Source of the DNA: a virus
DNA length: 23,970 nt
Reading direction: 5' to 3' (one strand)
Virus record (IMG/VR): IMGVR_UViG_3300036985_003822
Location: 1 to 23,970 of that record
Part shown: positions 9,916 to 23,674 of the stretch, one piece after another
Numbering within the stretch: the first letter of the stretch is position 1
How the letters are laid out: the number at the start of each line of letters is the position of its first letter
Notes under the pieces: generated by a model
Database searches by the model: none
What the model was told of the DNA's origin: nothing
The model's input: only the letters and a program-made list of their open reading frames with translations
Translations under genes and position numbers: made by a program

Positions 9916-12021
9916 ATGGCAGATAATGAAAAACCCTGGATTCCAGGAGAAGAAAACGAGCGCACTATACCGCCTGTTAGTGTTACGGCCAAAGCACCTA
10001 CAGAGGCTGAAAAAGCAGAATATGAGGCAAATTTACCTTGGATACCTGAAGGTTGGGAAGCTAAAGACGTTGAAGGTGGCACGCCATCTTTTGAAAGTCC
10101 TGCCTTAACAACCTTTCTTGAGGGCGGTGTAGGCATGGGCGGTGGCGATGAGCTAGCTGCCGGTATTGCCTATACAAAAGCCCGCGCTGCAGGTGCTAGC
10201 CATGAAGAAGCTTCATTAGCTGCAGCTAGAAGATTAAAAGCTGATCGTGAACAACGCCGCCAATATGCTGCTGAAAGCCCTTGGAAAGCTGGCTCGCTAG
10301 AGTTAGCCGGTGGCGTAATTTCAGGACTTGGCGCTACGGGCGTAGCTACTAAAGTAGCCCCGCGATTAATAGAATTAGCCAAAGAGTCACCTAAATTAGC
10401 TGCAGCTGTATTAGGTGGTGGCGGCATGGGTCTTACGGGTGTACTTGAGGGCGAAGGCTGGGAAGATCGCGTAAAACGTGGTCTTATTGGTACTGCAATT
10501 GGCGCGCCTTTAGGTTTTGGTATGGATATTGCAGGCCATGTAGCGGGTACCGCGTGGGACTATACTAAACGTGCAATAGGTATTGGTGGCGGAGTTAAGT
10601 ATGCCAATGCTGTTATTGCTGATGCTTTAAAACGTGCCGGTTTAACTGCTGATCAAGTTAGTTCCAAACTAGCGCAATACGCTGATAGACTTTTAACTGC
10701 CGCTGATGTAGACGAATTATTTCAGCAAATTGCTAAAGAAGTATCTAGTGATACTGGTGTTACTCGTAGACAAGCTTCTAAATTTTTATTAGATCGTGAA
10801 GCAAATCGCACTGGCCGCATTGGTCAAGATGTAGATGAATTAATTCATGCTGGCGACTATTATACTGGGCGTGAGGCTGCTATGGCTGTTAAAAAAGCCA
10901 ACGCTGAACCTTTATATGCGGCTGCAAATAGTGTGCCTTTAGTTATTAATAAGGATTTGCATGATTTGCTAACAAAAACCGCATCTATGCCTAAAGTTTT
11001 TGAATTAGCACGCTCTCGTTATAAAGATGATTTTTTAGAAGACTTGCCAGAGTTATTTGTAGAAGTTAAGCCCGGCATTTATGAGCTTAAAATAGCACCT
11101 GATGCACGTACCCTACATCGTATGAAGCTAGCCTTAGATGATCTTATTGCGGATAATACTACTCGCAATGCTATTACTGGTGTTAAAACCGGGGAGCTTA
11201 ATACTGATGGCCGTACATACCAAGGTCTTAAAGCTAAGTTACTAAATTGGATGGACAATAATATTGTTGATAATAAAGGCAATAAGCTTTATGCCAATGC
11301 ACGTAGCACCTATGCAGGTGATGCCGCCATTATAGATGCAATGGATCGTGGTGCTTCATTATATAAATTGCATCCCAATAATATTGTAGCTGAATTTAAA
11401 AAGCTAGATCCTTCTGAAAGAGATGCTTTCCGTGTAGGCGTAGTTAAAGCTATTGAAGACAAAATGATGAATAATGCTGAAGGCGCGGCGGCTGTTTATA
11501 AAATCTTTGGTAAAACATCAAATAGCAAAGAATATGCGCAAATAAAAGCGCTTTTTGATAATCCAGCAGACTTTGAAACATTTAAACAGCGTCTACTCAC
11601 TGAAATAGATATGGCTGGCACTGAGAAAATAGCTAAAACAAAACTAACATCATCAGGTGCTACCCATGTAGCGCGCCCTGTATTTTACCCTATTACTAAG
11701 CGCCACTTTATACCACAATACTTTTTAGAGGCTTTAGCGCCAACTGAAAAAGAAAAATCATTGATTTTAGATCGCGTAATGACACCGTACCCGCAGGGGG
11801 CGGCATTATTAAAAGAGGCTGAGCGCAGCGCAATACAAGGGCCTTTAAGTAAAGCATGGGAATTTACACGACCTGCACGCTTATTAAATCAGCCGCTGAT
11901 TCCAGGTTCTTATACTGGTGCTCGTGAGCCTAGCGTGCCGGAAGAGCAACAACCATTTGCGTTACCTACACCGCAGCAAAACGTTTTAGAAGTTCTAAAA
12001 CCACTGCAGTATAAGCCTTAA
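9916..12021 (+). CDS. Internal virion / DNA-ejection protein 3
   Basis: A 701-residue protein with an acidic Pro/Trp-rich head (WIPGEENERTIPPVSVTAK, LPWIPEGWEAKD), a Gly/Ala-rich amphipathic region (about residues 65-220, including GGVISGLGATGVATKVAP and AAAVLGGGGMGLTGVLEG), and a long charged helical body to about residue 620. A Pro-rich tail ends the protein. Glycine-rich amphipathic stretches in a large late gene fit a virion protein that enters the host membrane during ejection. It is the last gene of the rightward arm. Its stop codon (12019-12021) overlaps that of the leftward MazG-like gene, so no separate terminator space exists between the arms. No enzymatic domain was recognised. Confidence 0.7.
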   Translation: MADNEKPWIPGEENERTIPPVSVTAKAPTEAEKAEYEANLPWIPEGWEAKDVEGGTPSFESPALTTFLEGGVGMGGGDELAAGIAYTKARAAGASHEEASLAAARRLKADREQRRQYAAESPWKAGSLELAGGVISGLGATGVATKVAPRLIELAKESPKLAAAVLGGGGMGLTGVLEGEGWEDRVKRGLIGTAIGAPLGFGMDIAGHVAGTAWDYTKRAIGIGGGVKYANAVIADALKRAGLTADQVSSKLAQYADRLLTAADVDELFQQIAKEVSSDTGVTRRQASKFLLDREANRTGRIGQDVDELIHAGDYYTGREAAMAVKKANAEPLYAAANSVPLVINKDLHDLLTKTASMPKVFELARSRYKDDFLEDLPELFVEVKPGIYELKIAPDARTLHRMKLALDDLIADNTTRNAITGVKTGELNTDGRTYQGLKAKLLNWMDNNIVDNKGNKLYANARSTYAGDAAIIDAMDRGASLYKLHPNNIVAEFKKLDPSERDAFRVGVVKAIEDKMMNNAEGAAAVYKIFGKTSNSKEYAQIKALFDNPADFETFKQRLLTEIDMAGTEKIAKTKLTSSGATHVARPVFYPITKRHFIPQYFLEALAPTEKEKSLILDRVMTPYPQGAALLKEAERSAIQGPLSKAWEFTRPARLLNQPLIPGSYTGAREPSVPEEQQPFALPTPQQNVLEVLKPLQYKP

Positions 12022-12389
12022 AGTATTTTACTATAATCAGGGCCTACCCAACCGGCAGGTTTAATAACGTCATGCTTAGAACCTCGCTTGCTACCTTCGC
12101 CGTTTGGTCCTGCCTTTACTTTGCGCATGTTACACGCGTGCACTTCATCCCACGCCGCTTGAAAGGGCAGCCCTTGGAGATACGCCGTACCTAGTGCTAC
12201 GTATACCAAATCAACCAATGCGTCTAATTGCCCAGCTAAATCATTTTTAGTTGCGGCCAAAAGATATTCATCCAGCTCTTCTTGCATAAATTTAATACGA
12301 AAATTTGATAACAGCACCGGTAAGTCGGTAGGCGGGCCATCATAAGTTAACGCAAATTTTTCGTGAAATTCTTTTATATCATTAAGCAT
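12018..12389 (-). CDS. MazG / phosphoribosyl-ATP pyrophosphohydrolase-like NTP pyrophosphatase
   Basis: A 123-residue all-alpha NTP pyrophosphatase of the MazG/HisE superfamily, which cleaves nucleoside triphosphates to monophosphates and pyrophosphate. The metal-binding acidic pattern is present: MQEELDEYLLA (Glu37, Glu38, Glu41) and LDALVDLVYVALGTA (Asp56, Asp60). Next comes AWDEVHACNMRKVKAG, a typical substrate-side segment of phage members. AGGAG stands before the ATG. It is the most distal gene of the leftward nucleotide cluster, nine bases after the primase-helicase. The substrate is not readable from sequence. Phage relatives include dCTP/dUTP-hydrolysing enzymes (T4 gp56 belongs to this superfamily), and the neighbouring dCMP enzymes make a dCTPase role attractive but unproven. 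Confidence 0.85.
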   Translation of the reverse strand: MLNDIKEFHEKFALTYDGPPTDLPVLLSNFRIKFMQEELDEYLLAATKNDLAGQLDALVDLVYVALGTAYLQGLPFQAAWDEVHACNMRKVKAGPNGEGSKRGSKHDVIKPAGWVGPDYSKIL

Positions 12390-12397
12390 TTTAACTC

Positions 12398-14440
12398 CTA
12401 GAATTTTTGTAAGTGCATTTCAGGCGGGAACACGCCATCTACGTAGTCTGCAATATCTTTAGGTGGCATGTGTAACCATTTTTTATGGTTGCGTAAAATA
12501 TAAAACCGTTGCTTGCCAAAAGTTACTGATGGTATTGGCCCAACTGTTTTTAAACCAAAGCGGCTTAGCTCGCGGCCTAAGCCGTTAGGCGTTACACGAG
12601 TAGTGTTTTGGGGATCGTAGAGCCATTTTAAATGCTTATTAAGCACTAAGTCTAAGTCTGTTGGTTTGCATTGTAAATACTCCGCCAGGCGATGTAATTC
12701 CAATTCTAAGTTAGCTAAAAAGAAAGATACCCAGCCACTTAGGTCTGAGCGCGCATGGTCAACTAATTCGTTTTTACTCGCGGTCATAGGTGCCGCAGCA
12801 GCAGGATCAAAGGTAGCAACATCATAGGTTAGTAGGAAAGCAAATAATGCTTCGCGCCCACCATTTTGTAGCCATGTCATATACTGTCTATAAAATTCAG
12901 GCTCTCTACGTTTTTCAGCAACGGTGCGCCATATAAAAAAGCGGCGATCTTGATCATCTAAAAAGAATGCGTCAGGGTGATTACTAGTAAAGTAGTAGTT
13001 GATGCAATCAGGCACTACGTATGTGGGCAAGTTTTTCATATTAATACGCAATTGCCTTTGCGTAATAAGCGCTTTTAATTTATCTGCTTCATGCCGTTTA
13101 TCTGAGCCTGTAATTTCATCGCCCAATATAAACTGCTTATTAATTGCCCATTCATTAAAGGAAGCGTGCAATTCCTGATTACCAATCTCGCCAAAGTTAG
13201 TTCCGTAAATCTCACCTAGCGTGTAACCAACAAGGGACTTACCTGTACCTGTTTCAGGTCCCCACATTACTGCACTTGTAAATAACTTAGTGCCAGGCTT
13301 TTGTAATGGATATGCGGCCCATTGCTGAAACCAATGCTTGCTATCTACATCATCTCCAAATAGCACATCTAGCAAGTCATGCCAAGGCGCTACGTCACCT
13401 TCTGCCGGAACACAGCCCCAGCCACGCCATGTATTATATTCATTTGCTTCTGTAATAGCTAGCTTACCTGGCTCATAAGTTACGCATTCAACATCTAAGC
13501 GGCTAGCCCATTTAACCCATTCAGCGGCAACACGTACTTCCGTACGTTTCATATTACCATTGCCTGATGGCTGGTATTCAATCACATTATGATTAGCCAT
13601 AAGGCCATTAATAAATGAGTCACGTTTTAAGCGCCGACCAGAGGCAAGCTCAATAACTAAATCTTGGTCCATTACATAGGCATAGCGTGTATTAATCTCA
13701 GCCATACGATCGCCTAAATCAATACTTCGCACCTCGGCCAAGACACTTTGCAAGTCACCGCCATTGAGCAAAAAGTCATCAAGGCCTTGCTTTTCACCTG
13801 TAATAGTTGGGGGTAGCGTTGCTAGTTTAGGTATAGCGCCTTGCGCTAGTAAGGCTTTGGCTAATGCAATTTCAGCGCGTGCTACGTTAGGATTAGTTGC
13901 AGCGTCGGAGTCAAACACAATTGTTACAACACGACCGCGCCAATCTATTTGCGGTAAGGGCTCAAGTAAAGGTATTTGGCGCTTAGCACTAGACCAAACA
14001 GACACGCCACCTAGCGCTAGGCAACTGTAACCGCATTTTGCAGCGGCAGCAGCCTTTAGCTCGCCTTCAGTAATTAAAATGTCTTCCGTAGGGCGCTGTG
14101 CAATATCAGCCCAGGGTATTGAAGGCGGTAAATACACTTCATTTAATGATTTAGGTTCTTGTGCATAGCGCTGAGGTTTAGCTATTTGCGCAGCAAACCC
14201 ACTAGGCTGCTCAAGATAGCGTATGCGATAAAAATTTGTTTGGTTACCTTCAATATCAAAGTAAGGAATTTTAAACCCTTTAACTTTGGTAAATGAATTA
14301 TGTAATGCGGAACAATCAGAAAAAAACACCAAACCTAGCACTGCGGCATCAGCTAAATCTAAGCCCGATGAGCTCAATTTACTGGTGAATGCGGCGTCGC
14401 TCTGCACTTTCGGTGCAGTTACTTGTGCTTTAGTTGCCAT
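12398..14440 (-). CDS. Primase-helicase, TOPRIM-like plus superfamily 3 (D5-type) helicase
   Basis: A 680-residue replication protein. The N-terminal half has a TOPRIM-like domain (DUF3854-type) with ILITEGELKAAAAAKCG (Glu125) and VVTIVFDSDA (Asp177, Asp179), then GLDDFLL. The C-terminal half is an ATPase of the phage D5/superfamily 3 kind: Walker A GPETGTGKS (394-402), Walker B-like QFILGDEITGSD (Asp441, Glu442), sensor YYFTSNHPDAFFL (about 482-494) and an arginine pair DRRFF (499-500). A DUF5906-like label would fit. It would unwind DNA at the fork and may prime; no separate zinc-binding or AEP primase motif is seen, so priming is uncertain. AGAGG precedes the ATG. It lies with the nucleotide genes rather than beside the polymerase. 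Confidence 0.9.
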   Translation of the reverse strand: MATKAQVTAPKVQSDAAFTSKLSSSGLDLADAAVLGLVFFSDCSALHNSFTKVKGFKIPYFDIEGNQTNFYRIRYLEQPSGFAAQIAKPQRYAQEPKSLNEVYLPPSIPWADIAQRPTEDILITEGELKAAAAAKCGYSCLALGGVSVWSSAKRQIPLLEPLPQIDWRGRVVTIVFDSDAATNPNVARAEIALAKALLAQGAIPKLATLPPTITGEKQGLDDFLLNGGDLQSVLAEVRSIDLGDRMAEINTRYAYVMDQDLVIELASGRRLKRDSFINGLMANHNVIEYQPSGNGNMKRTEVRVAAEWVKWASRLDVECVTYEPGKLAITEANEYNTWRGWGCVPAEGDVAPWHDLLDVLFGDDVDSKHWFQQWAAYPLQKPGTKLFTSAVMWGPETGTGKSLVGYTLGEIYGTNFGEIGNQELHASFNEWAINKQFILGDEITGSDKRHEADKLKALITQRQLRINMKNLPTYVVPDCINYYFTSNHPDAFFLDDQDRRFFIWRTVAEKRREPEFYRQYMTWLQNGGREALFAFLLTYDVATFDPAAAAPMTASKNELVDHARSDLSGWVSFFLANLELELHRLAEYLQCKPTDLDLVLNKHLKWLYDPQNTTRVTPNGLGRELSRFGLKTVGPIPSVTFGKQRFYILRNHKKWLHMPPKDIADYVDGVFPPEMHLQKF

Positions 14441-14451
14441 ACAACCTCTAT

Positions 14452-14847
14452 TTATTTATTATTAACTACTAATTGTGGCTTTGGTCTAAAATTCAGGCCT
14501 TCAATTAATGCATCTACTATTAGTTTATTTTGCACATACTTAAAAGACATCTCAGGCGTATATCTAGGTTTAGGTGCACTCTTTTTTTCTATGTTGTACG
14601 TTTTAAGGTACAACTGTTTAGCTAGGTTTTGTAAATCTTTATGCTTAAGCCTTACATATTTAAGCTTCATGCAATCTTGCGCAAATTGGCGACCTTCGGG
14701 CGTTCTAAGCAACCATTCTGCTTGACTAACTGATGGTACTGGTGCAGGCGCTACTTTACGGGGTAACGTCCGCTCCTTAGCTAATGCTGTAATATAGTCT
14801 GCCAATTCTTCAGGTACAGTAATAGATATTTTAACTTCTTTTAGCAT
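14452..14847 (-). CDS. Unknown protein with ribbon-helix-helix-like N-terminus
   Basis: A 131-residue basic protein. I chose the ATG at 14847 because the product then begins MLKEVKISITVPEELADYI, a good ribbon-helix-helix start (strand KISITV, Pro-Glu-Glu turn, helix ADYITALAKER), with a modest AGAGA upstream. An ATG 39 bases earlier (14886) is possible but adds residues with no clear sense and a larger overlap. The gene overlaps the end of dCMP deaminase by 17 bases. The remainder is helical and Lys-rich (KYVRLKHKDLQNLAKQLYL) and I do not recognise it. A DNA-binding regulator is a reasonable guess, and the paired dyads at the two leftward promoters are conceivable targets. This is inference from a short motif. 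Confidence 0.65.
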   Translation of the reverse strand: MLKEVKISITVPEELADYITALAKERTLPRKVAPAPVPSVSQAEWLLRTPEGRQFAQDCMKLKYVRLKHKDLQNLAKQLYLKTYNIEKKSAPKPRYTPEMSFKYVQNKLIVDALIEGLNFRPKPQLVVNNK

Positions 14848-15280
14848 TGTTGTAATCTCTATATTGCTGCCAATTGCGCCCTGCACGCTCCCATAGCTCT
14901 TGTCCTGTTTGGCCGGTATGATTTTCTAAAAATACCACCCGTTTACAAGATGTATTTAGCAACATTTTGGTGCATCTAATGCAAGGGCTAAGCGTTACGT
15001 ACACTGTATCAATAGCCCAGGCATTATGGCATTGCAATAGCGCATTTACTTCCGCGTGCACGGCTTCACATGAGTCTTGCCCCGGAGGTAAGTCATGACC
15101 TTTACAAGTATGCCCTTCATTACAATGCCCTAAGCCTGCTGCCACGCCGTTATAACCTGTGCCAATAATATGCCCGCGCTCGTTAACAAGCACGCAACCT
15201 ACAGCCTTACGTAGACAGGTTGAACGGCCACTTATTACAGTAGCCAATTCAAGAAAAAAGGCGTCTTTAGTAGGGCGCAT
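14831..15280 (-). CDS. dCMP deaminase
   Basis: A 149-residue zinc-dependent deaminase converting dCMP to dUMP, feeding dTMP synthesis. The signature is complete: AVHAEVNALL with His75 and catalytic Glu77, and TLSPCIRCTKML with zinc ligands Cys100 and Cys103. The GRSTCLRKAVGCVLVN segment and the GLGHCNEGHTCKGHD insert, with extra Cys/His, are typical of phage and eukaryotic dCMP deaminases that bind a second zinc. It starts two bases after the ThyA homologue stop, so the pair is clearly co-expressed. T-even phages also pair such an enzyme with a dCMP hydroxymethylase. Some phage deaminases accept 5-substituted dCMP; whether this one does is unknown. dCTP/dTTP allostery, common in the family, cannot be judged by eye. 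Confidence 0.93.
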   Translation of the reverse strand: MRPTKDAFFLELATVISGRSTCLRKAVGCVLVNERGHIIGTGYNGVAAGLGHCNEGHTCKGHDLPPGQDSCEAVHAEVNALLQCHNAWAIDTVYVTLSPCIRCTKMLLNTSCKRVVFLENHTGQTGQELWERAGRNWQQYRDYNNAKRS

Positions 15281-15282
15281 AG

Positions 15283-16089
15283 CTATACCGACATTTCAGC
15301 GGTAATAGCCGGCCAAGACTCATAGCCTTCAAGCGTAATATCGTCCATAGTTAAATCAAACATGCTTTTTTTGGCTAGCTTTAATGTTGGTAACTTTTTA
15401 GGCTTACGTAAAAGCATTTCTTGCACCTGGTCTACATGATTAAGATAAATATGTGTATCGCCTAACTGGAATACTAAATATCGTGACTCTAAACCTACTT
15501 CTTGCGCTAGCATTGATAAAAGCACTGCGTAGCTTGCTACGTCAAAAGGCATGCCTAAAAACAAGTCTACTGATCGCATGTCTACTCTTAAATCAAGGTG
15601 TCCATTTGACACATAGCATTGAAACAAAATATGGCACGGTGGTAAGCACATTTGATCTAACTCTGCGGGCTGCCAAGCCGTAACAATATGCCGGCGGCTA
15701 TAAGGGTCAGCCTTTAAATTAGCAATTAAATTAGCCAGCTGATCCACTACGCACTTAGTACCTTGCCATGCTCGCCATTGCACGCCATAAATGCGGCCTA
15801 GATCGCCTGGGACTTGCGGGGACCAATAAGTAGCACTAGCATTAGCATCCCAAATTTTAACTCCCAGTTTATGAAAGTCTTCTAAGTTGCTTTTACCGTG
15901 AATAAAGCATAACAATTCACCTAGCACTTGCTTAAAAGCTAAGCGCTTAGTGGTAGTAGCAGGAAAACCTTCACGTAAATCAAAAGTTACTTGTGCTCCA
16001 AATACTGAAATAGTGCCTGTACCAGTACGGTCTTCCCGTATAAGCCCGGTATCACGTACTCGTTTAACTAACTCTAGGTAGGGTATCAT
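15283..16089 (-). CDS. ThyA homologue, predicted dCMP methylase or hydroxymethylase
   Basis: A 268-residue protein of the thymidylate synthase fold, normal length for ThyA. Conserved sites are REDRTGTGT (phosphate Arg21), LGELLCFIHG (catalytic Glu), DLGRIYGVQWRAW, SRRHIVTAW, the nucleophile LPPCHILFQ (Cys152), MRSVDLFLG, and GDTHIYLNH (His and Tyr of nucleotide binding). The key oddity is MPFDVASYA: Asp183, codon GAC, stands where thymidylate synthases have Asn (E. coli Asn177, L. casei Asn229). That Asn selects uracil; Asp there is known from T4 dCMP hydroxymethylase, and the Asn-to-Asp mutant of L. casei enzyme prefers dCMP. The Trp of the IW pair is kept, but the following Trp of E. coli (IWDEW) is Ala. 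Ordinary dUMP methylation remains an alternative. It overlaps its upstream neighbour by ATGA. Confidence 0.9.
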   Translation of the reverse strand: MIPYLELVKRVRDTGLIREDRTGTGTISVFGAQVTFDLREGFPATTTKRLAFKQVLGELLCFIHGKSNLEDFHKLGVKIWDANASATYWSPQVPGDLGRIYGVQWRAWQGTKCVVDQLANLIANLKADPYSRRHIVTAWQPAELDQMCLPPCHILFQCYVSNGHLDLRVDMRSVDLFLGMPFDVASYAVLLSMLAQEVGLESRYLVFQLGDTHIYLNHVDQVQEMLLRKPKKLPTLKLAKKSMFDLTMDDITLEGYESWPAITAEMSV

Positions 16090-16355
16090 TCTTGCTCTGC
16101 CTTAAGACGGTTTAATACTAATGTACAATAGCCAATAATATCAAAAATATGGTCTTGCTCATTAGGGTTGCCACATAAAATACGCGCAATTTTATGCGCA
16201 ACCATATCAAGGCATTCTTTTTGATCCATGTCTAGCCCAGCCCAATTGGGAGTGTCTCGCATATTATCTTTGAGTGTTTGCGATGTATAGCTACTTATTT
16301 CAAAAGAGCCATGCGTCTTTCTACGCTCATCTAATACTGCTTCAATATCGGTCAT
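16086..16355 (-). CDS. Small phage protein, DUF6378-like
   Basis: An 89-residue helical protein. The pattern VLDERRKTHGSFEISSY, then CLDMVAHKIARILCGNPNEQ and HIFDIIGYCTLVLNRLK matches a small phage family I recall as DUF6378; no search was run. Conserved His, Asp and Asn residues (HGSF, DMVAHKIARI, GNP, D-HIFDI) in a helical bundle suggest a nucleotide-related role similar to MazG-like bundles, but this is only a resemblance. The gene starts in an ATGA overlap with its upstream neighbour (16352-16355) and ends in an ATGA overlap with the ThyA homologue (16086-16089), so it is tightly coupled to nucleotide metabolism genes. Confidence 0.78.
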   Translation of the reverse strand: MTDIEAVLDERRKTHGSFEISSYTSQTLKDNMRDTPNWAGLDMDQKECLDMVAHKIARILCGNPNEQDHIFDIIGYCTLVLNRLKAEQE

Positions 16356-16912
16356 TTGGCACCTCTTTTAATATCTGCTCGATACCAGTTTAAGCTAGCA
16401 GGTGTAGTTTTAGCATCCGGCCATTTAGCACGTACAGCCTCAAGAATTTCATCATTTGATTTGCCTTCTTTAATTAGCTCAACGCAAAATGCGCCAATGC
16501 CTAAGCCTCTAGGCTTAGCTTCTGAAGGTGGCTTAGCGGCCTTAGCTTTAGCTGCTTTTTCAGCCTTTTTATTGGCTACTTCTTGCTGTGATTGATTAGG
16601 CTCTTCTGATGCTTTTTTAGCTAAAGCTTTTGCCTCAGCTGTTGTTGCTGTTGCCATGATGATCTCCTTTAATTTTTTAATTACGGGTAGGTTGTGCATA
16701 TACGCACGTTGAGCTAGCTTTAAAAAAGATACCGCGGCGTCCGCTATTGCCAAGGGCACTTTAGTATCAAATTCTTTATTGAAGGCGAGTGTTGACATTT
16801 TACTTAGCACTACGCCAACAGCTTGTACTTCCAGGAATTGCGTTATTTTAGCCGTTTGATGGATGCAAAGAACTATATGGCTATTATGATTTTTTAAAAC
16901 AATGTACTGCAT
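16352..16912 (-). CDS. First gene after internal promoter; apparent two-start protein
   Basis: A 186-residue reading frame. The ATG at 16912 has AAGGAA five bases upstream and lies just after the promoter near 16950, so it is the likely primary start. A second ATG in the same frame at 16657 (Met86) has AAAGGAG six bases upstream, equally good or better. The short product would have 101 residues: a Lys/Ala-rich charged stretch, then RGLGIGAFCVELIKEGKSND and AKTTPASLNWYRADIKRG, a helix-turn-helix-sized domain I recall in small phage proteins. Residues 1-85 are unrelated and unrecognised (VSFLKLAQRAYMHNLPVIKK). Either two nested proteins are made, or two former genes fused in frame. The last four bases overlap the next gene by ATGA. 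Confidence 0.72.
   Translation of the reverse strand: MQYIVLKNHNSHIVLCIHQTAKITQFLEVQAVGVVLSKMSTLAFNKEFDTKVPLAIADAAVSFLKLAQRAYMHNLPVIKKLKEIIMATATTAEAKALAKKASEEPNQSQQEVANKKAEKAAKAKAAKPPSEAKPRGLGIGAFCVELIKEGKSNDEILEAVRAKWPDAKTTPASLNWYRADIKRGAK
16655..16669 (-). promoter_or_regulatory. Strong internal ribosome site and in-frame start
   Basis: On the minus strand AAAGGAG is followed by ATCATC and then ATG at 16657-16655, within and in frame with the 186-residue gene. Spacing (six bases after AGGAG) is near optimal. It would give a 101-residue C-terminal product. Confidence 0.6.
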
Positions 16913-16929
16913 GTTATTTCCTTAAGTCA

Positions 16930-16942
16930 GTCGTTATTCGAC
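16930..16942 (-). promoter_or_regulatory. 5'-leader hairpin of the internal leftward transcript
   Basis: Thirteen bases on the minus strand fold as GTCG-AATAA-CGAC directly after TTATC, about where transcription from the -10 at 16951-16956 would begin. The equivalent 13 bases after the other leftward promoter (23081-23093) also fold, with a different stem sequence. A hairpin at an mRNA 5' end commonly slows decay. The fold is seen; the role is inferred. Confidence 0.5.
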
Positions 16943-16979
16943 GATAATTAATTATACTATAGCTACATAAACATGTACA
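16942..16979 (-). promoter_or_regulatory. Leftward promoter with dyad operator (internal, PA)
   Basis: Minus strand: -35-like TGTACA (16979-16974), 17-base spacer, consensus -10 TATAAT (16956-16951), then TAATTATCG. The dyad TACAT-N4-ATGTA spans 16964-16977 and overlaps the -35. The 38 bases match the promoter at 23093-23130 at 28 positions with no gap. It lies in the only sizeable non-coding gap between the helicase stop and the start at 16912, so it should drive the nucleotide and primase cluster. Confidence 0.75.
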
Positions 16980-16982
16980 TAA

Positions 16983-18338
16983 CTATGCATTCCAATAACT
17001 AGCTAACGCAGTTAGCAATGATTGTTGTTGCTTATCTTTTTTAGCCACTATGGCTAGCACTGCAGTATCTATGGTTTTATTGGCTACTAAATGGTATACA
17101 AACACGCGCTGTGCTTGCCCTTGGCGGTATACCCTTGCAATAAATTGCTCATAAGTTTCTAAATTATATGTTAACGTAAACCAACAAATAGCGCTACCAC
17201 CCTGCTGTAAATTTACGCCATGTGAAATAGCACCGCTTTGGGCAAGCAATAATGGTATTTCACCGCGGTTCCATGCATCAATAATATCGGCACCTTGTTT
17301 GGTAGTCATGCCACCGCCAATAATAGGCAATTGACCGCCAAATGCTTTATTAATAGCCACGGCTTCATGCGTGTATTCGTATGCCACTAATAATGGTTGG
17401 CCTTCTAATTCTTCTACCAAGTCTTGCAGCGCTTCAACCTTAGCACTATGTATTATATGCACGTCACCTTGCTCGTCATATACCGAGCCTGACGCTATTT
17501 GGCGGCACTTACCTGCAGCTACTGCAGCATTGACTGCTGTTACTTTGCCTTCCTGTACTTCAATCTGCAGCTTTTTCTCCATTTGCAAATATTGCAATTG
17601 GGCTTCTTCAGGCAAGTCTACTATTATATTGACCTTAATTAGCTCAGGCATGTCAAGATAATCTTCTGCTGCCATACGCATAACACGCGGTGCAAGCAAC
17701 TGCTGTATTTGTGCTGCCGCATTTGGTTTTAGCTTCCACTCATATCCGCCAAAGCCTGTTTGAAAGAAATATAAATCTCTATAGTGCGATATAAATGGGC
17801 CGAACGTAGCACCTTGATCCATGCAAAATACTTGACCAAATAAATCAAGTAAGCTATTGGCTGCTGGTGAGCCTGTTAAAATATAACGGCGTTTAAACTT
17901 GCTAAGCATCTTTTTAAGCGTTTTAAAGCGTTGTGTATTAGTATGCTTTAGCTTCGAGCTTTCGTCAATAACAAGCACATCAAACATAGGCGCATGCCTT
18001 GTGGCCGCTTCTAGCCATTTCAAGCCTTCATAGTTCATAACATAAATATCATGATCCTCAGCTAGCACCTTAGCTTTATTTGCGCCATGTAAAATACCTA
18101 CTGATAAATGCTGAAACTCATCCCACTTTTGCCCTTCAGCCGGCCATGTGGAATAACACACGCGCAATGGCGCTAGCACCAGCATTTTCTTTACTAGCTT
18201 CTTAGCACGTAGCACCTCAAAGGCGGCAAAAGTAATACTTGTTTTGCCCAGTCCTGGCGATAAAAATAGCCCGGCGCAAGCTCTTTCAAGTATAAATTTA
18301 ATAGCGCGCTCTTGGTATTTATGCGGGGTAAATTTCAT
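16983..18338 (-). CDS. SNF2-type superfamily 2 DNA helicase
   Basis: A 451-residue DNA-dependent ATPase of the SNF2-like superfamily 2, common in phage replication regions. Motifs in order are HKYQERAIKF (Q motif, Gln9), LSPGLGKTSIT (Walker A, 29-33), LVIDESSKLK (motif II, Asp125-Glu126), YILTGSPAANS (motif III, 155-158), ISHGVNLQQG (motif V, about 373-378) and QFIARVYRQGQAQRV (motif VI). Length is typical for compact phage members without extra domains. It overlaps the VRR-NUC nuclease start-to-end by 20 bases (18319-18338). The coupling suggests a helicase-nuclease pair for branched DNA or recombination during replication. Strand polarity or remodelling activity cannot be told from sequence. 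Confidence 0.92.
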   Translation of the reverse strand: MKFTPHKYQERAIKFILERACAGLFLSPGLGKTSITFAAFEVLRAKKLVKKMLVLAPLRVCYSTWPAEGQKWDEFQHLSVGILHGANKAKVLAEDHDIYVMNYEGLKWLEAATRHAPMFDVLVIDESSKLKHTNTQRFKTLKKMLSKFKRRYILTGSPAANSLLDLFGQVFCMDQGATFGPFISHYRDLYFFQTGFGGYEWKLKPNAAAQIQQLLAPRVMRMAAEDYLDMPELIKVNIIVDLPEEAQLQYLQMEKKLQIEVQEGKVTAVNAAVAAGKCRQIASGSVYDEQGDVHIIHSAKVEALQDLVEELEGQPLLVAYEYTHEAVAINKAFGGQLPIIGGGMTTKQGADIIDAWNRGEIPLLLAQSGAISHGVNLQQGGSAICWFTLTYNLETYEQFIARVYRQGQAQRVFVYHLVANKTIDTAVLAIVAKKDKQQQSLLTALASYWNA

Positions 18339-18609
18339 TATGATCCTTTAATACTTTAAATGCGGCATCAAAGCCATAACAAACGTGCACTTCAGCTTCA
18401 TGCTTACGCAGCTCTTCAATAGCATTTTTCTGCGCTTCAGATAGCACACCTTTATCCGTTTTTAACTCTACCCAAATATACCGACCTTTATTAGTTACAA
18501 CCAGTCTATCGGGGTAGCCACGTCTGCCAATAACATTTTGCTTAAGGCAAAGCCAGCCAAGCTTTTTACACTCTTTAAGAAACTTAGCCTCAATTTGCTT
18601 TTCTAGCAT
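18319..18609 (-). CDS. VRR-NUC domain nuclease
   Basis: A 96-residue stand-alone VRR-NUC protein, of the PD-(D/E)XK nuclease superfamily. The N-terminal helix EKQIEAKFLKECKKLG is followed by NVIGRRGYPDRLVV with Asp34, then YIWVELKTDKG with Glu48 and Lys50, and SEAQKNAIEELRKHEAEV. This gives the PD...ExK catalytic set plus the Gln60 of the typical AQ helix. Phage stand-alone VRR-NUC proteins can cut branched or Holliday-junction DNA, and the fused form occurs in FAN1. The gene overlaps the SNF2 helicase by 20 bases, so the two probably act together. Catalytic residues are all present, so it is likely active. The precise substrate is not known. Confidence 0.93.
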   Translation of the reverse strand: MLEKQIEAKFLKECKKLGWLCLKQNVIGRRGYPDRLVVTNKGRYIWVELKTDKGVLSEAQKNAIEELRKHEAEVHVCYGFDAAFKVLKDHNEIYPA

Positions 18610-18613
18610 AGCG

Positions 18614-18700
18614 TTACCAGTGATGAATAATATTAATAATTAGCACAATATCTGCTATTGCTGCCAGTCCAATAAGTAGCCATTCTTTTAATACGTGCAT
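18614..18700 (-). CDS. 28-residue hydrophobic membrane peptide
   Basis: A very short frame fills the gap between the nuclease genes. It runs from ATG at 18700 to TAA at 18614-18616 and encodes a 28-residue peptide: MHVLKEW, one strongly hydrophobic helix (about residues 8-25, LIGLAAIADIVLIINII), then HHW. The start lies inside the end of the Cas4-like gene, and the stop is four bases before the VRR-NUC start. An AAAGGG is 12 bases upstream and an AGGA only two bases upstream, so the ribosome site is imperfect. Placement without wasted bases and the clean membrane helix suggest a real small protein, but chance cannot be ruled out. Confidence 0.5.
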   Translation of the reverse strand: MHVLKEWLLIGLAAIADIVLIINIIHHW

Positions 18701-19380
18701 GGTCCTGCATTACCCTTTCTAAAGTGACAAAACCCGCAAAATTGATTAGGTCTTGCAGACCAAATATCGTCTACAAACATGGGTAATACACGTCCTTCCC
18801 AATTTTTTTGTAACTCAGGCAGCATAGCTTGTGTATACGCACCATGTGATGTGCCTACAATTTCACCAGTATCTAAAAACCAAAGCTCGGCACTAATATG
18901 CTTAACATCAGGGTAAAGCAAAAGCGCCGCTAAAGCGTATAGTTCTAGCTGATCTTCATAGCCGCCTCTATTTTTGCCTGTCTTAAAGTCAATAATACGG
19001 ATAGTGTCATCATCTAGCACTAAAGCGTCAATCTTTATACGGCACCAAGCATCAGCATCAAACCAACCTGTTTTTGTCCAGTCTTTAGTAAATGTAATCT
19101 CAAGCTCAGAGACAGCTCTTAAATCACGCAGCTCTTCTAATTCAAGGGCAAGCAACTTATAATTTTCAGGCACGTCTGCTATTTCATTCTTAAGGTAAAG
19201 CTCACCTTGCTTATGAATAGCAGCACCGCGATCCATAGCAGCAGAGCCAGGCTCCTTAATACCATCTAATACTGTAAGCTTAAACTTAAACGGGCATTGC
19301 TCATAAGTATTAAGCCGAGAATAAGACCATGCGGTTACGGTCTTTGCTTTACCCGCTTTTTTAATTTCAATTTTAGACAT
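18688..19380 (-). CDS. Cas4/RecB-like PD-(D/E)XK nuclease with probable 4Fe-4S cluster
   Basis: A 230-residue protein of the PDDEXK_1 (RecB/AddB/Cas4) group. The N-terminal WSYSRLNTYEQCPFKFKL has the first Cys (Cys29). AAMDRGAAIHKQGELYL gives His56, RIKIDALVLDD gives Asp118, IIDFKTGK gives Asp131 and Lys133, and YEDQLELYALA gives the Q-x6-Y type motif. The last residues, NQFCGFCHFRKGNAGPC, add Cys215, Cys218 and Cys228, completing the four-Cys set that holds an iron-sulfur cluster in AddB and Cas4. It would be an exonuclease for DNA ends in recombination or replication. AAGGA precedes the ATG, and the polymerase lies eight bases upstream. No CRISPR array is present, so a Cas4 role in adaptation is not suggested. 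Confidence 0.9.
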   Translation of the reverse strand: MSKIEIKKAGKAKTVTAWSYSRLNTYEQCPFKFKLTVLDGIKEPGSAAMDRGAAIHKQGELYLKNEIADVPENYKLLALELEELRDLRAVSELEITFTKDWTKTGWFDADAWCRIKIDALVLDDDTIRIIDFKTGKNRGGYEDQLELYALAALLLYPDVKHISAELWFLDTGEIVGTSHGAYTQAMLPELQKNWEGRVLPMFVDDIWSARPNQFCGFCHFRKGNAGPCTY

Positions 19381-19388
19381 ATTTTTCC

Positions 19389-21176
19389 TTAGACTGCTGC
19401 AAAATTAGGGCCACGTGCTTCTGTGGATATGATTTCATAATCAAGTATATCCTGAAAGCTGCCGTTCATAGCTTGCGCAAGTAATGCGGCTTCCTCATCT
19501 TGATGCTCAATTGGACATTCTATTACAATTTCATCATGGACACTTAATACTATTTGCCCATGCTTAGTGTTGGCCGCATAATCAATTAACGCTTGCTTAG
19601 ATTGATCCGCTGCGGAACCCTGAATAAGATAGTTGGTTAACTTAAATGAATATGTTTGCAGCCTACCATTAACTACTTTGGGTGTTTCCGCGTAATACCT
19701 GCGACCACCTAGCGTGGTTAAATAGCTGCCACTGTCTCCGCGGCGGGTGAGCTCGCGTTGCATTTCTTTAATCTCAGGCAATGCTTTTAAATACTGCGCT
19801 TTAATGGCCGTGGCTTCCGCAACGCTTACGCCTAAGCTTTCCGCAATCTTAGCTACGCCAGCACCATACAATACCGCAAAGCCTAGCGTCTTAGCCACCT
19901 TACGAGTAATTTGGGCAATGTTAGCAGCAATCATATGGACGTCAGCTTCAGGTTCTTTTTGCAGCACTGCTAATAAACCACCACCCGCAAAGTGCGCTAG
20001 CAAGCGTAACTCTTGCGCTGAATAATCGCGTGCCACAAATATGTTACCATCATCAGGAATAATGTAACTGCGCACTGAGGGCAGCGCAAAAGCAGTTTCA
20101 TATTCAAGCTTAGCTAACTGCGCTTTTAATCCTTCCCATTCTACAGGAATAGCTTGTAAGTTAGGCGAGGACGATATACGTCCGGTCCTAGCACCTGTAT
20201 CTGAGTAATTGCGCACTTGGTTCCATCGCACATACATGCGACCGCTTACCTTAGCTTGCTCATACCACGGCATTAAAAACGTGCGGACGGTGGTAGCAAT
20301 AGCCCTGCGGCATAAAATGTGGCCTAGCAATGTAGGATCTGAAATAGCCTCAATAATAGAGTCTTTAGCTACCGACCGGTTGCCCTTTTCAGTTAGCGCA
20401 AAGCCTTTACCCGCCAGGCCTTTGGCTTCAATTGCATCAGCTAATGCTTCACCTGAGTCAATATCAACCTCACCTACTATGCTTTTAATACTTGCATCCA
20501 ACCAATTTAGCACTTGCATATAATGCTGAATGTCAGTATGCAATTTGGTTATATCAACCCTAACACCGCGTTTTTCCATTTTATAAATGTGTGGCATTAG
20601 TGCCATTTCACGTCGATAAGGTTGTTGTACACTTTCTGTGTGCAGCACTTCAAATATTTTTTCTGTGCGCACTACGTCCCCAATTGCATAAGGCCCTACA
20701 ATATCAGCTGGCGCTTTGCTAATATAGGCGCCCCAATCTTTCTGCGCTTTACGCACTATGCCTTTAGCTAGCAGCCAGTCATGTACTGCATCTTGCTCTT
20801 CGGGTGGAATATTTAATAGCTTATGGGCTAAAGGTTTTAAACTCAGCTCGCCATGTGCGTTATTAAGAAAAGCTAGCACCATAGAGTCGTGCCACTTAGG
20901 CCAGTCTATAGCTAGCCCCATTTTTTCTTCAGTAATGGCAGCCTCAAACATAAGGTTATGCGCCAGGAATTCATAGCCCGGTGATGCTAGTGCCTTTGCT
21001 AGGGCTGCCTTACCTTCTTCAAACGTACAATTGTTGCCTTCCGTATGCCCCCAAGCCCAGTACTTAGCTTCACCGTCTTTAAGTATAGCAACGCCTACTG
21101 GTGTAGGGGGATAGTCCGGCCTATTTTGTATTGCTGTTGTTTCATAGTCAATTGTTATAATCTTCGATACTGACAT
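19389..21176 (-). CDS. polA: Family A DNA polymerase with 3'-5' proofreading domain
   Basis: A 595-residue replicative polymerase lacking a 5' nuclease domain. The exonuclease part has IITIDYETT (Asp10, Glu12), LAHNLMFEAA (Asn74, Glu78 in place of the usual Asp) and PYAIGDVVRTE (Tyr163, Asp167). The polymerase part has TGRISSSPNLQAIP, motif A FVARDYSAQELRLL (Asp384), motif B RKVAKTLGFAVLYGAG (Arg425, Lys429, Phe433, Tyr437), LIQGSAADQSKQALI, and motif C LSVHDEIVIE (His547, Asp548, Glu549). Phe433 corresponds to E. coli Phe762; in virioplankton studies Phe or Tyr at this site goes with virulent phages and Leu more with temperate ones. All catalytic residues are present. The gene sits between the small early genes and the nuclease-helicase group. 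Confidence 0.96.
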   Translation of the reverse strand: MSVSKIITIDYETTAIQNRPDYPPTPVGVAILKDGEAKYWAWGHTEGNNCTFEEGKAALAKALASPGYEFLAHNLMFEAAITEEKMGLAIDWPKWHDSMVLAFLNNAHGELSLKPLAHKLLNIPPEEQDAVHDWLLAKGIVRKAQKDWGAYISKAPADIVGPYAIGDVVRTEKIFEVLHTESVQQPYRREMALMPHIYKMEKRGVRVDITKLHTDIQHYMQVLNWLDASIKSIVGEVDIDSGEALADAIEAKGLAGKGFALTEKGNRSVAKDSIIEAISDPTLLGHILCRRAIATTVRTFLMPWYEQAKVSGRMYVRWNQVRNYSDTGARTGRISSSPNLQAIPVEWEGLKAQLAKLEYETAFALPSVRSYIIPDDGNIFVARDYSAQELRLLAHFAGGGLLAVLQKEPEADVHMIAANIAQITRKVAKTLGFAVLYGAGVAKIAESLGVSVAEATAIKAQYLKALPEIKEMQRELTRRGDSGSYLTTLGGRRYYAETPKVVNGRLQTYSFKLTNYLIQGSAADQSKQALIDYAANTKHGQIVLSVHDEIVIECPIEHQDEEAALLAQAMNGSFQDILDYEIISTEARGPNFAAV

Positions 21177-21199
21177 AAAACCTTTCCTTTAATTAAAAG

Positions 21200-21409
21200 C
21201 TAGCCTTTAGCTTTAGCCGCCATGTCTTTTTTCTCTCTAATTGAGCGCATCTTAGAATAGCGATTATAAATGCGTAACATTACACGAAGCCGTGCACGTT
21301 CAGACTGCTCTTGGGCCAGCAACTCTTCTAACTCAACTTCAGTTAGCGTCATTACCACCTTGTTAAGAACAGCCCAATTTTTTAAATACGTTGCGAATTG
21401 GGCTTGCAC
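21200..21409 (-). CDS. Small helical protein, GTG start
   Basis: A 69-residue charged helical protein of unknown function. The GTG at 21409 is preceded by AAGGAGA eight bases upstream, which decides the start over an ATG 57 bases later (Met20) with no comparable site. Residues about 20-45 form an acidic amphipathic helix (TLTEVELEELLAQEQSERAR), and the rest is strongly basic (MLRIYNRYSKMRSIREKKD), giving a dipolar helix. No catalytic or metal motif is seen. Lying between the four-Cys protein and DNA polymerase it may be a replication accessory factor, on context alone. Confidence 0.72.
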   Translation of the reverse strand: MQAQFATYLKNWAVLNKVVMTLTEVELEELLAQEQSERARLRVMLRIYNRYSKMRSIREKKDMAAKAKG

Positions 21410-21425
21410 TTGACGTTCTCCTTAG

Positions 21426-22187
21426 TTAGTATTTTTTACCACGAGCTTTGTCAGCTGATTTTTCTACCGGTGCCGTTGCCTGATACGGTGCAGTAGGTGT
21501 TGCAGTTTGACCTTCATGACGTTTGATCAACGCACCTAGCACTTCGCCATCATTTACAGGTTCTTTCTTAGTAAATGTGATCTTGTATTGTGTTTTAGGA
21601 TCAGGTTGCGCACCTATTGTTGTTACCACAGAAAACGGTGGACGGCGATCTAATGTTGCCAATGTGTTAACATAGTTAGCCCAGTTTTTGGTAGACGTTA
21701 CAGGTAATTTTAAGAAGGCAATCTCTGCTGTCTCAATTGTTGCTGTATCCAATGGCGTTGCAGGTACCATAGCAAGGCGGCGACTATTTTTACATGCCTT
21801 ACCTTTACCACGATCAGCTGAGCCAAACTCATTTTGCGGACAACCTTTACATGTTTCATGCTGAGGCTGACTTGAGTCAGGGTGCGGCGCCAATTCTTTA
21901 TCATCGTGTGCAAATGCAAAGCACACAGGACTTGCAGGATTATCAGGATCAAAGTCATCAACATAATAAGTATTTTCATAGATGCTATCAACCACTACCA
22001 CATCTAACTTATTGCCAGCTACTGCCTGACCTTGCCATTGCAAGACGCCACTGCGGGTAGTAACAAAACTACCTGTGGGTGCTGCTTCAGCTTGTTGTGC
22101 TTGTGTTGCAAATTGGGCAAGACGATCAGCCCACTCAGTTGGCATAGCTACTGCCGTTGCATTAGGTACCACTACTTCATTAGTCAT
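21426..22187 (-). CDS. Replication-region protein with four-Cys site, possible ssDNA-binding protein
   Basis: A 253-residue protein. The core has LDVVVVDSIYENTYYVDDFD followed by a compact Cys cluster: Cys89 in SPVCFAF, Cys113 and Cys116 in ETCKGCPQNEFGSA, and Cys132 in GKACKNSRRLAMVP, a likely zinc site. A beta-rich part follows, with RRPPFSVVTTIGA and TQYKITFTKKEP, and a disordered Thr/Pro/Ala then basic tail (DKARGKKY). I recall this family in replication modules of other phages but not with a proven function. Its position before the polymerase suggests single-stranded DNA binding or similar, yet T7 and T4 SSB motifs are absent and the tail is basic rather than acidic. Function is therefore open. 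Confidence 0.75.
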   Translation of the reverse strand: MTNEVVVPNATAVAMPTEWADRLAQFATQAQQAEAAPTGSFVTTRSGVLQWQGQAVAGNKLDVVVVDSIYENTYYVDDFDPDNPASPVCFAFAHDDKELAPHPDSSQPQHETCKGCPQNEFGSADRGKGKACKNSRRLAMVPATPLDTATIETAEIAFLKLPVTSTKNWANYVNTLATLDRRPPFSVVTTIGAQPDPKTQYKITFTKKEPVNDGEVLGALIKRHEGQTATPTAPYQATAPVEKSADKARGKKY

Positions 22188-22201
22188 TTTCAGCTCCTTA
22201 G

Positions 22202-22669
22202 TTACAAGTTAAAATTAAGAGCGCCTTGTTCGGGCCCTTGAAACCAACTAGGTGCACCGCGCTTAGTCCAAGTGGCGCCTTGTTGGGTAGTGCAATAATA
22301 TTCTTGATACGCTTTTACAGGTTGCCCATGTATTGCTTTAGGTAATAATTGAAGCCAACGTTTAGGTTTACGCATGTCAGCTTGCGGTGTAGGTAATACA
22401 TGCAAACTCTCTTGATACTCTTCTAGCCATACGTCAAACCTAAAGGCCGCTTCATTAATTAACTGCCTGGTTAGCATGCTTAGCCAACTGTACTCAGCAG
22501 GCCCTCCGCACCATTTAGTCAATATGTGGTTTTTAAATGAATGTCTTTCCGCGTGCACCGCACGTAGCACTTCAATAAGCACAGGAATACTTTCGGTTAA
22601 GTGCTCATCAGAATACATTACGGCGCACTGCAAAGGATTTTCATCTAATAAAAATACTTGTGGACGCAT
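22202..22669 (-). CDS. Conserved phage protein of unknown function
   Basis: A 155-residue protein. The opening QVFLLDENPLQCAVMYSDEH and the C-terminal KAYQEYYCTTQQ with GAPSWFQGP match a family I remember from many phages and marine viruses, whose members begin with a similar Leu-Asp-Glu-x-Pro then Asp-x-His helix and end with a Tyr-x-x-Tyr-Tyr segment. No function for it is known to me. The middle is helical (EYSWLSMLTRQLINEAAF). Glu10/Asp9, Asp21 and His23 could be catalytic or metal residues, but this is a guess. The ATG sits on the stop of the upstream gene, so expression is coupled. Confidence 0.72.
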   Translation of the reverse strand: MRPQVFLLDENPLQCAVMYSDEHLTESIPVLIEVLRAVHAERHSFKNHILTKWCGGPAEYSWLSMLTRQLINEAAFRFDVWLEEYQESLHVLPTPQADMRKPKRWLQLLPKAIHGQPVKAYQEYYCTTQQGATWTKRGAPSWFQGPEQGALNFNL

Positions 22670-23059
22670 TTAATTGCCTGCTTTGGTAAGCGATAGCCCT
22701 ATTTTTACAAACGGTGTAATGCCCGGAATTTCTTCACCATTAGAAAAATGCTCTTCACAGGCGCGAGCACCTGGTTGCTTACGCATTAGCTCCCATGAGT
22801 CGGTAGCTGCAACATACTTAGTAAACGCTTCCCAATCGCTGATTTGATAAACAGTGCTGCGCTTAATACCTGCAGTAGCTATTTCGCCCTTAGCACCGTT
22901 CAATTCTTGTTTAGAAAAAGCTTCAAGTATATGTGTCTCATAGGCGCGTTCTACCTCACCCATGGCATCTACTTCACGTTGAAAATCTAAGCGCTTAGCA
23001 CGTGCTTCATACAAAGCATCAATACAACCGCCTACTGTTGCCGGAAATTTTATGGTCAT
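22670..23059 (-). CDS. Conserved early phage protein, helical-beta, unknown function
   Basis: A 129-residue protein with an N-terminal helix GGCIDALYEARAKRLDFQRE, a segment VERAYETHILEAFSKQE, then a beta part GAKGEIATAGIKRSTVYQIS, and a closing helix-strand part KYVAATDSWELMRKQPGARA ending ITPFVKIGLSLTKAG. This order is shared with a small-protein family in early or replication modules of many phages, whose function I do not know. AAGGAG stands six bases before the ATG. It is the first gene after the promoter at 23093-23130, which fixes it as the head of this leftward transcript. Confidence 0.75.
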   Translation of the reverse strand: MTIKFPATVGGCIDALYEARAKRLDFQREVDAMGEVERAYETHILEAFSKQELNGAKGEIATAGIKRSTVYQISDWEAFTKYVAATDSWELMRKQPGARACEEHFSNGEEIPGITPFVKIGLSLTKAGN

Positions 23060-23080
23060 TTGTAACTCCTTAATTAGTCA

Positions 23081-23093
23081 GCTGTAACACAGC
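23081..23093 (-). promoter_or_regulatory. 5'-leader hairpin of the right leftward transcript
   Basis: Thirteen bases on the minus strand fold as GCTGT-GTT-ACAGC. They follow TTATC and precede TGACT exactly as in the leader at 16930-16942, but with a different stem sequence. The predicted transcript start is at or next to the hairpin. The pairing is seen; an mRNA-stabilising role is inferred. Confidence 0.5.
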
Positions 23094-23130
23094 GATAAAT
23101 TATTATGCGCTTTATACATAATAATGTACA
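23093..23130 (-). promoter_or_regulatory. Leftward promoter with dyad operator (right, PB)
   Basis: Minus strand: TGTACA (23130-23125), 17-base spacer, CATAAT (23107-23102), then AATTTATCG. TACAT-N4-ATGTA spans 23115-23128 at the same offset from the -35 as in the promoter at 16942-16979. The gap between 23060 and 23137 holds no gene. It should drive the genes from 23059 leftwards; earlier genes to the right need another promoter outside the window. Confidence 0.72.
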
Positions 23131-23137
23131 GTCTTAT

Positions 23138-23269
23138 TTAACTTTGCATGATATACTCATCAGCCAGTGCGGCTGCTTTAGTATAAATTTGCTCAGCGGT
23201 CTTAGTACCTGCGTTAGCTGTCAATGCCAGCATAAACATCAGTATTAATTCGTGTCTAGTTGGCGCCAT
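23138..23269 (-). CDS. 43-residue small protein
   Basis: A short frame from ATG 23269 to TAA 23138-23140 encoding 43 residues: MAPTRHELILMFMLALTANA then GTKTAEQIYTKAAALADEYI and MQS. GAGGA stands eight bases upstream, within the end of the preceding gene, which it overlaps by 14 bases. The helical, Ala-rich layout ending in ALADEYI resembles other tiny phage proteins that have two helices and no known function. It fills what would otherwise be a 196-base gap, leaving only the promoter and leader. The first half is hydrophobic but carries no clean membrane helix. Coding status is likely; function is unknown. Confidence 0.68.
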   Translation of the reverse strand: MAPTRHELILMFMLALTANAGTKTAEQIYTKAAALADEYIMQS

Positions 23270-23486
23270 CTTTTAGATCCTCTTCCAGAGCTGCTTTATC
23301 TGCTTGGTCCTGTGCTTGTTTAGCCAGCACTGCTTGTTGGTGTAATGCTGCTTGAGCCAAGTGCACAGAAGTTACTTCACGTTGCACACTTAGCACGGCA
23401 AACATTTCGTCTAGGTTCGTGCCTTCTTGATAAGCTTGGTGCATAGCATTGGCGATTAGGGTTGCTGCGGTTGTGTATCCACTCAT
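23256..23486 (-). CDS. Small helical early protein
   Basis: A 76-residue protein, Ala/Gln-rich and almost wholly helical. It has GYTTAATLIANAMHQAYQEG, then LAQAALHQQAVLAKQAQDQA and an acidic end EEDLKDG. AAGGAGA eight bases upstream and an ATGA overlap with the preceding stop (23483-23486) support the ATG. No known motif is seen; a coiled coil in about residues 40-70 is likely. It belongs to a run of tiny overlapping early genes at the right edge, which in phages often encode host-takeover factors, though nothing here shows that directly. Confidence 0.72.
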   Translation of the reverse strand: MSGYTTAATLIANAMHQAYQEGTNLDEMFAVLSVQREVTSVHLAQAALHQQAVLAKQAQDQADKAALEEDLKDGAN

Positions 23487-23674
23487 TTTGGTTCTCCTTG
23501 TTTATGTTTCTGGGCTTTCAAAAGTAATTCACGTAGTTCCTGCATTTGTTCGTCTGTCATGATGCTCCTAGCTAGTTGTAGTTCTTGTTTCAAATCCATT
23601 ATTATATAATGGTCCATCTCCATGTTTTCTGTCAAGTAGCGAATATGCTCTGTCAGCTTCCATTCTTCACTCAT
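23483..23674 (-). CDS. Small acidic coiled-coil early protein
   Basis: A 63-residue protein joined to both neighbours by ATGA overlaps (23483-23486 and 23671-23674). It looks like a single long amphipathic helix pair: EEWKLTEHIRYLTENMEMDH and TDEQMQELRELLLKAQKHKQ, acidic at first and basic at the end. No catalytic or metal motif is seen, and I do not recognise the family. The tight overlaps make it a genuine gene of the early string. Confidence 0.7.
   Translation of the reverse strand: MSEEWKLTEHIRYLTENMEMDHYIIMDLKQELQLARSIMTDEQMQELRELLLKAQKHKQGEPK

Follow-up and report, generated by a model that had tools for sequence, protein, structure and literature searches.

A ThyA-family protein encoded in a linear-ended virus record of 23,970 bases (hereafter the window, meaning the whole stretch of DNA analysed) carries aspartate at the base-selecting site of thymidylate synthases (TS). 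We propose, with moderate confidence, that it is a dCMP-specific 5-methyltransferase derived from a phage ThyA and paired with the adjacent deaminase for dTMP supply. The parts of this reading differ in strength: the enzyme very probably prefers dCMP, its product is probably methylated rather than hydroxymethylated, and the chances that deamination to dTMP is the main fate of 5-methyl-dCMP appear evenly balanced. More tentatively, many environmental phages may make dTMP by a uracil-free route, from dCMP through 5-methyl-dCMP, using Asp-type ThyA and deaminase as a replaceable module; at the same tentative level, this module would swap with ordinary Asn-type ThyA in evolution and would not necessarily entail 5-methylcytosine in DNA.

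A thymidylate synthase scaffold with aspartate at the base-selecting site

The first-pass annotation had placed the gene at 15,283 to 16,089 without giving a strand. An ORF does occupy these coordinates on the minus strand (Table 1), and an ORF check of the plus strand found it full of stops. As that annotation had claimed, a GAC codon, read from 15543 to 15541, aligned with E. coli Asn177 and L. casei Asn229, such that the Asn marking a dUMP-specific TS at E. coli 177 was replaced by Asp183. The catalytic residues it had described as intact were all present (Cys152, Arg21, Arg132-Arg133, Arg172, Glu58 and the DTHIYLNH segment), with further conservation at His153, Ser173, Asp175, His213 and Tyr215; Leu149, His153 and the full C-terminal tail were likewise TS-like. 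Pfam, NCBIfam and PHROGs all name the protein thymidylate synthase, bearing out the remark that a ThyA annotation hides the Asp type.

Table 1. Features of the ThyA-family locus in the window.
Feature	Position	Strand	Basis or remark
MazG/PRA-PH-type nucleotide pyrophosphohydrolase	12018..12389	-	PF01503 E=2.8e-15, phrog_671
Primase/helicase (DUF3854/DUF5906)	12398..14440	-	downstream syntenic marker
144-aa ORF, no family, between deaminase and primase	14452..14886	-	homologues limited to one lineage
dCMP deaminase-like protein, 149 aa	14831..15280	-	PF00383 E=2.3e-20; starts 2 bases past TS stop
ThyA-family protein, predicted dCMP 5-methyltransferase (Asp177/His147 type)	15283..16089	-	268 aa; Pfam PF00303 E=6.8e-97
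Asp183 codon GAC (E. coli Asn177, L. casei Asn229), base-selecting residue	15541..15543	-	alignment; site function from PMC8670742, PMC6400193
Met171 codon (E. coli Gln165), site co-varying with Asp177	15577..15579	-
Cys152 nucleophile and His153 (E. coli Cys146-His147)	15631..15636	-	invariant in TS alignment
Small protein 5' of TS, overlaps TS start	16086..16355	-	weak DUF6378 similarity, PF19905 E=8e-5, below cut-off

An AF2 model built on 24 aligned sequences (mean pLDDT 93.7) matched Mtb ThyA over its whole length, C-terminus included (VIA Z 39.2, rmsd 1.1 over 261 residues), and cellular ThyA proteins were 46-48% identical to it in structure alignments. As modelled, the protein thus retains the entire TS scaffold, which T4 dCMP hydroxymethylase does not. 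Among L. casei entries of the PDB, the one that scored best was 1njc/1njd, whose own sequence has Asp at the site ('pfdiasya') and which we take to be the published N229D mutant. That protein has in common with the query one Asn-to-Asp change on an intact TS background, but it is a laboratory mutant, whereas the query is natural, with a co-varying Met at position 165 and a deaminase partner.

Asp183 was kept in four separate, about 90% identical IMG/VR contigs (L001-L004) and is therefore not a sequencing error. Asp at site 177 also recurred in at least 43 IMG/VR stretches retrieved with one motif, so that it is no chance oddity. A scan of 84,980 bacterial species genomes returned only 8 Asp-motif stretches, nearly all in metagenome-assembled genomes, and thus we found no bacterium depending on the Asp route.

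Relatives G001-G004 were syntenic with the window over most of its length, and the small protein upstream of the TS gene was conserved in the syntenic relatives. From our reading of its ORFs, G001 (51 kb) appears additionally to encode terminase, portal-type, capsid and tail-type proteins. No DNA-level match among isolate phages was found for positions 12000-23970 of the window, and an Rfam scan of the window gave no match at gathering scores. At its left end (51-1406), four ORFs that we read as peptidase/endolysin- and holin-like had no counterpart in G001-G004, whereas the adjoining genes did. The 144-aa ORF (14452-14886, minus strand) accompanied the deaminase only in the window's lineage, its homologues being confined to L001-L004 and to further records of those contigs.

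Sequence classes and phylogeny of the Asp-type enzymes

According to the MetaGPA study, positions 177 and 147 best separate the TS of modified from those of unmodified contigs (PMC8670742). At these positions, the enzymes of T4 (gp42), AXL3, PW916 and ctUtU524 have Asp177 with Thr147, SPO1 gp29 and M6 have Asn at both, and AXL1, of the XP12 clade, has Asp177 with Pro147. The query, with Asp177 and His147, falls into a further class that is probably methylating rather than hydroxymethylating. Two database proteins deserve mention here: PW916 UIS73818 (L128:43663-44481, minus strand) and AXL3 QKW95583 (L308:4943-5752, minus strand), annotated as deoxyuridylate hydroxymethyltransferase / thymidylate synthase, share Asp177/Thr147 with T4 gp42, and dCMP hydroxymethylase would be the likelier call for both. 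In addition, the XP12-clade TS AXL1 gp63 (L307:8623-9564, minus strand; Asp177, Pro147) is a candidate for the mechanism behind 5mC-like restriction resistance, a question that the AXL1 paper did not settle.

A second site varied together with position 177. Among the His147 proteins, Gln165 was replaced, mostly by Met, in 30/36 Asp rows versus 5/39 Asn rows (Fisher 4e-10); counted as tree-independent pairs, 4.3 changed in the same direction and 0.1 in the opposite one (median p 0.125). Met at this position, Met171 in the query, was also found in T4 gp42 and the Asp/Thr enzymes.

In a tree of 88 TS-family proteins built with columns 147, 165 and 177 excluded, the Asp/His proteins were scattered within true TS, and well-supported branches required seven or more switches between Asp and Asn. 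AXL1 gp63, used as a stand-in for XP-12 in our comparisons, and T4 gp42, both on long branches, fell outside the TS clade holding the query (support 98), and, with T4 gp42 set aside, the remaining eight Asp/Thr rows formed a separate clade (support 98) to which the query did not belong. The query does nest within true thymidylate synthases, which is the phylogenetic half of what the first-pass annotation had named as counting against its proposal. We propose that a dCMP methyltransferase evolved from an ordinary phage ThyA through Asn177 to Asp, accompanied by Gln165 to Met.

The adjacent deaminase and the other nucleotide genes

The deaminase of the window has the zinc motifs HAE and PCxxC and the allosteric GYNG motif. 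At the position of T4 Tyr153 it carries His rather than an aromatic Tyr or Trp, which speaks against the route proposed here. Its AF2 model (pLDDT 90.3) adopts the DCTD fold and matched S. mutans dCMP deaminase with VIA Z 20.3. PADLOC matched it to an anti-phage dCTP deaminase model, within the deaminase portion only; being phage-encoded and cut to the catalytic domain, it was not treated as a defence protein.

To compare Asp and Asn types, IMG/VR was sampled with the Asp and Asn versions of one DNA motif, the records were dereplicated at 90%, and 1.5 kb of flank was required on each side; the pattern matches only exact FD[IV]A[S/T]Y-type motifs and misses Asp types such as L310 (FDVAGY), so that the counts are lower bounds. 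Among the matches listed, a dCMP deaminase lay within 1.5 kb of 13/22 Asp-type versus 0/54 Asn-type loci (Fisher 3e-9), and the deaminase profile recognised its controls, the T4 cd, M6, PW916 and ctUtU524 proteins. Corrected for the tree, the trend persisted, with 2.6 pairs going the same way and 0.1 the opposite way, but it was not significant (p ~0.25, with too few independent pairs). The larger set behind the tree includes one Asn-type locus, L041, that is flanked by a deaminase. Over whole contigs, 18 of 25 Asp/His records had an above-cut-off PF00383 match and seven, which like the others are fragments, had none; these seven may draw on host functions or put the product to another use. 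A deaminase also adjoins Asp/Thr hydroxymethylase genes, where it presumably makes dUMP, and adjacency alone thus does not fix its role. Acceptance of 5-methyl-dCMP is reported for dCMP deaminases in general (PMC12088426). One contig encodes, beside a deaminase, a second and divergent Asp-type TS homologue (L091:5306-6040, minus strand) in addition to its Asp/His TS at 1739-2560.

ThyX was found in 0/25 Asp/His contigs, all of them fragments, versus 12/23 Asp/Thr contigs, many of which are close relatives and hence of limited independence (Fisher 2e-5). No evident separate Asn-type ThyA was present in the 25 Asp/His contigs; G020 has a second, divergent Asp-type homologue. A T4-gp1-type dNMP kinase occurred in 1/25 Asp/His contigs and was absent in 24/25, and the 51 kb of G001 showed no canonical Walker-A kinase. 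DHFR, the enzyme that restores the cofactor following hydride transfer, was encoded by 5/25 Asp/His versus 0/19 Asp/Thr contigs. A 208-kb Asp-type phage (G029, the contig of L109) has PF21448 dNMP-kinase and PF00186 DHFR matches at 195276-196328 (plus strand), in one apparent 373-aa frame that is likely a kinase-DHFR fusion.

A natural exchange of the two enzyme types was suggested by the closest Asn-type relative among the matches listed (G005, locus L005), whose TS is 63% identical to the query and which lies between two lineages that have both Asp and the deaminase. Its gene order is that of the window: DNA polymerase, PD-(D/E)XK, VRR-type nuclease, SNF2, an ORF, DUF6378-like protein, TS, primase and MazG. 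Only the deaminase and the 144-aa ORF were lacking, and the primase began 18 bases after the TS. The syntenic L088 has Asp and, in the same slot, an orthologous deaminase 73.6% identical to that of the window. In a local tree, L005 and L059 were sisters (98/90; L059 shares its contig with L088) and fell within the clade of the query (100/99), and L005 retains the Asp-associated Met171. On the simplest history, Asp and the deaminase would be ancestral and L005 would have returned to Asn and lost the deaminase, as read from one 11.9-kb contig whose primase is broken (split into two frames). The synteny of L005, L088 and the window indicates that an Asp enzyme with deaminase and an Asn enzyme alone can fill the same place in the same type of phage. 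As a separate observation, two Asp-type phages have TS genes with a long in-frame insertion after YG..(W/Y)RKW (L088:4603-5961, plus strand, and L099:533-1924, minus strand, on the contig of L071); by our reading it resembles a phage HNH/AP2 homing endonuclease, and Rfam found no group I intron.

Thymidylate supply weighed against other roles

In the route we propose, dCMP would be supplied by degraded host DNA or by the MazG-type enzyme, a possible dCTP-to-dCMP supplier whose gene occurs likewise in the Asn-type relative G005. It would then be methylated with 5,10-methylene-THF as carbon and hydride donor, yielding 5-methyl-dCMP and DHF, and the adjacent deaminase would convert 5-methyl-dCMP to dTMP, an order of 'methylate first, deaminate second' that bypasses dUMP; part of the 5-methyl-dCMP may enter DNA via a host kinase. 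Such a route would explain why the deaminase goes with Asp, why no other phage thymidylate synthase is found, why the kinase is missing and how an Asn enzyme could be swapped in. The first-pass proposal of dCMP as substrate draws support from Asp183, the co-varying Met171 and the deaminase/NTP-pyrophosphohydrolase context. That the protein is instead an ordinary TS tolerating Asp and still using dUMP from the neighbouring dCMP deaminase is highly improbable. Its nesting within true TS, its identity to cellular ThyA and the textbook order of deaminase and then TS would fit, but in the TS of E. coli and L. casei the Asn-to-Asp change by itself brings about a switch to dCMP (cited in PMC8670742). 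Moreover, an ordinary TS leaves the co-varying Met165 unaccounted for, and Asn types should then favour deaminase neighbours equally, which none of the listed Asn-type loci did. A dCMP hydroxymethylase, in which water quenches the methylene intermediate as in T4 gp42 to give 5-hydroxymethyl-dCMP, is improbable too. The query shares Asp at the base site for dCMP and Met at 165 with T4 gp42 and the Asp/Thr group; however, T4 gp42 has no C-terminal tail, has Asp145 and Val85 for Leu143 and Trp83 (PMC6400193), and shows no significant pairwise BLASTP similarity to the query, whose tail, Leu149 and His153 are TS-like. The hydroxymethylases checked carry Thr (as does T4 gp42) or Asn at 147 rather than His, and the DHFR contrast points the same way. 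Of the methyl or hydroxymethyl product first suggested, the methyl is thus favoured, the hydroxymethyl being disfavoured by the His147 equivalent, Leu149, the tail and the TS-like fold.

Rather unlikely, yet with more in its favour, is DNA modification as in XP12 or T4, in which 5-methyl-dCMP is phosphorylated and replaces virion cytosine to block restriction, and the deaminase and MazG serve pool balance only (dUMP for host ThyA, dCTP removal). This reading accounts better for the MetaGPA associations and the XP12/AXL1 parallel. Asp177 TS, PF00383 and PF01503 are enriched in contigs with experimentally modified DNA (eLife 2021, PMC8670742). That study already published the signature at Asp177 and showed that it co-occurs with PF00383, PF14437 and PF01503, and the window contains all three domains. 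AXL1, whose DNA is restriction-resistant, has its Asp177 TS beside a deaminase, DHFR and a pyrophosphohydrolase, and in Xp15 an Asp177 enzyme is accompanied by a deaminase and a carbamoyltransferase. Against it, the MetaGPA signature involves position 147, where the query keeps the TS-type His, and often a carbamoyltransferase, which was not recognised here; no phage kinase was seen in the 51-kb relative, and no accessory modification genes were recognised. Furthermore, if the product were not deaminated, the phage would be left without any TS, in contrast to many hydroxymethylase phages. T4 carries a separate TS. The modified virion cytosine suggested by the first-pass annotation was not established: with no phage kinase seen in the 51-kb relative, no ThyX and an adjacent deaminase that could give dTMP, the locus is accounted for no less well by the thymidylate route.

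The closest biochemical precedent is the Xanthomonas phage XP-12, which makes dTTP through a 5-methyl-dCTP deaminase, independently of the host (PMC12088426). Like the query as read here, XP-12 and its sequenced relative AXL1 (gp63-gp62) combine Asp177, dCMP methylation by a TS-family enzyme, an adjoining deaminase and thymidylate drawn from a methylated nucleotide (PMC12088426, PMC8543423). In contrast to our reading of the query, the XP-12 deaminase acts on the triphosphate and XP-12 DNA is fully 5mC; thymidylate synthesis and DNA incorporation could operate together, as in XP-12. AXL1 gp63 further differs in Pro147, its place on a long branch outside the TS clade and only 33% identity over 179 aa, and the AXL1 deaminase, with DHFR added beside the pair, is 29% identical to that of the window. 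Votkovvirus S28C10 (AP013540) is a further related system, with an Asp-type ThyA, then a deaminase 51% identical to the window's, then a primase; it differs in Tyr147, a shorter C-terminus and an extra P-loop kinase. The cluster of this marine phage (L341:4414-6435, plus strand), comprising NTP-PPase, P-loop kinase, Asp177/Tyr147 TS, dCMP deaminase and primase, reads as another version of the module, with kinase.

In the open papers searched, we found no description of an Asp177/His147 class, of co-variation at Met165, of a deaminase association that distinguishes Asp from Asn types, of the contrast in ThyX or of the reversion. Should DNA modification be the true role, Asp177, Met165, His147 and an adjacent deaminase would together be a marker for 5-methylcytosine phages. 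If the thymidylate route holds, phage Asp-type 'thymidylate synthases' are misannotated, and a second thymidylate route, biochemically known from one phage in 1982, would be widespread in nature and exchangeable with the textbook one.
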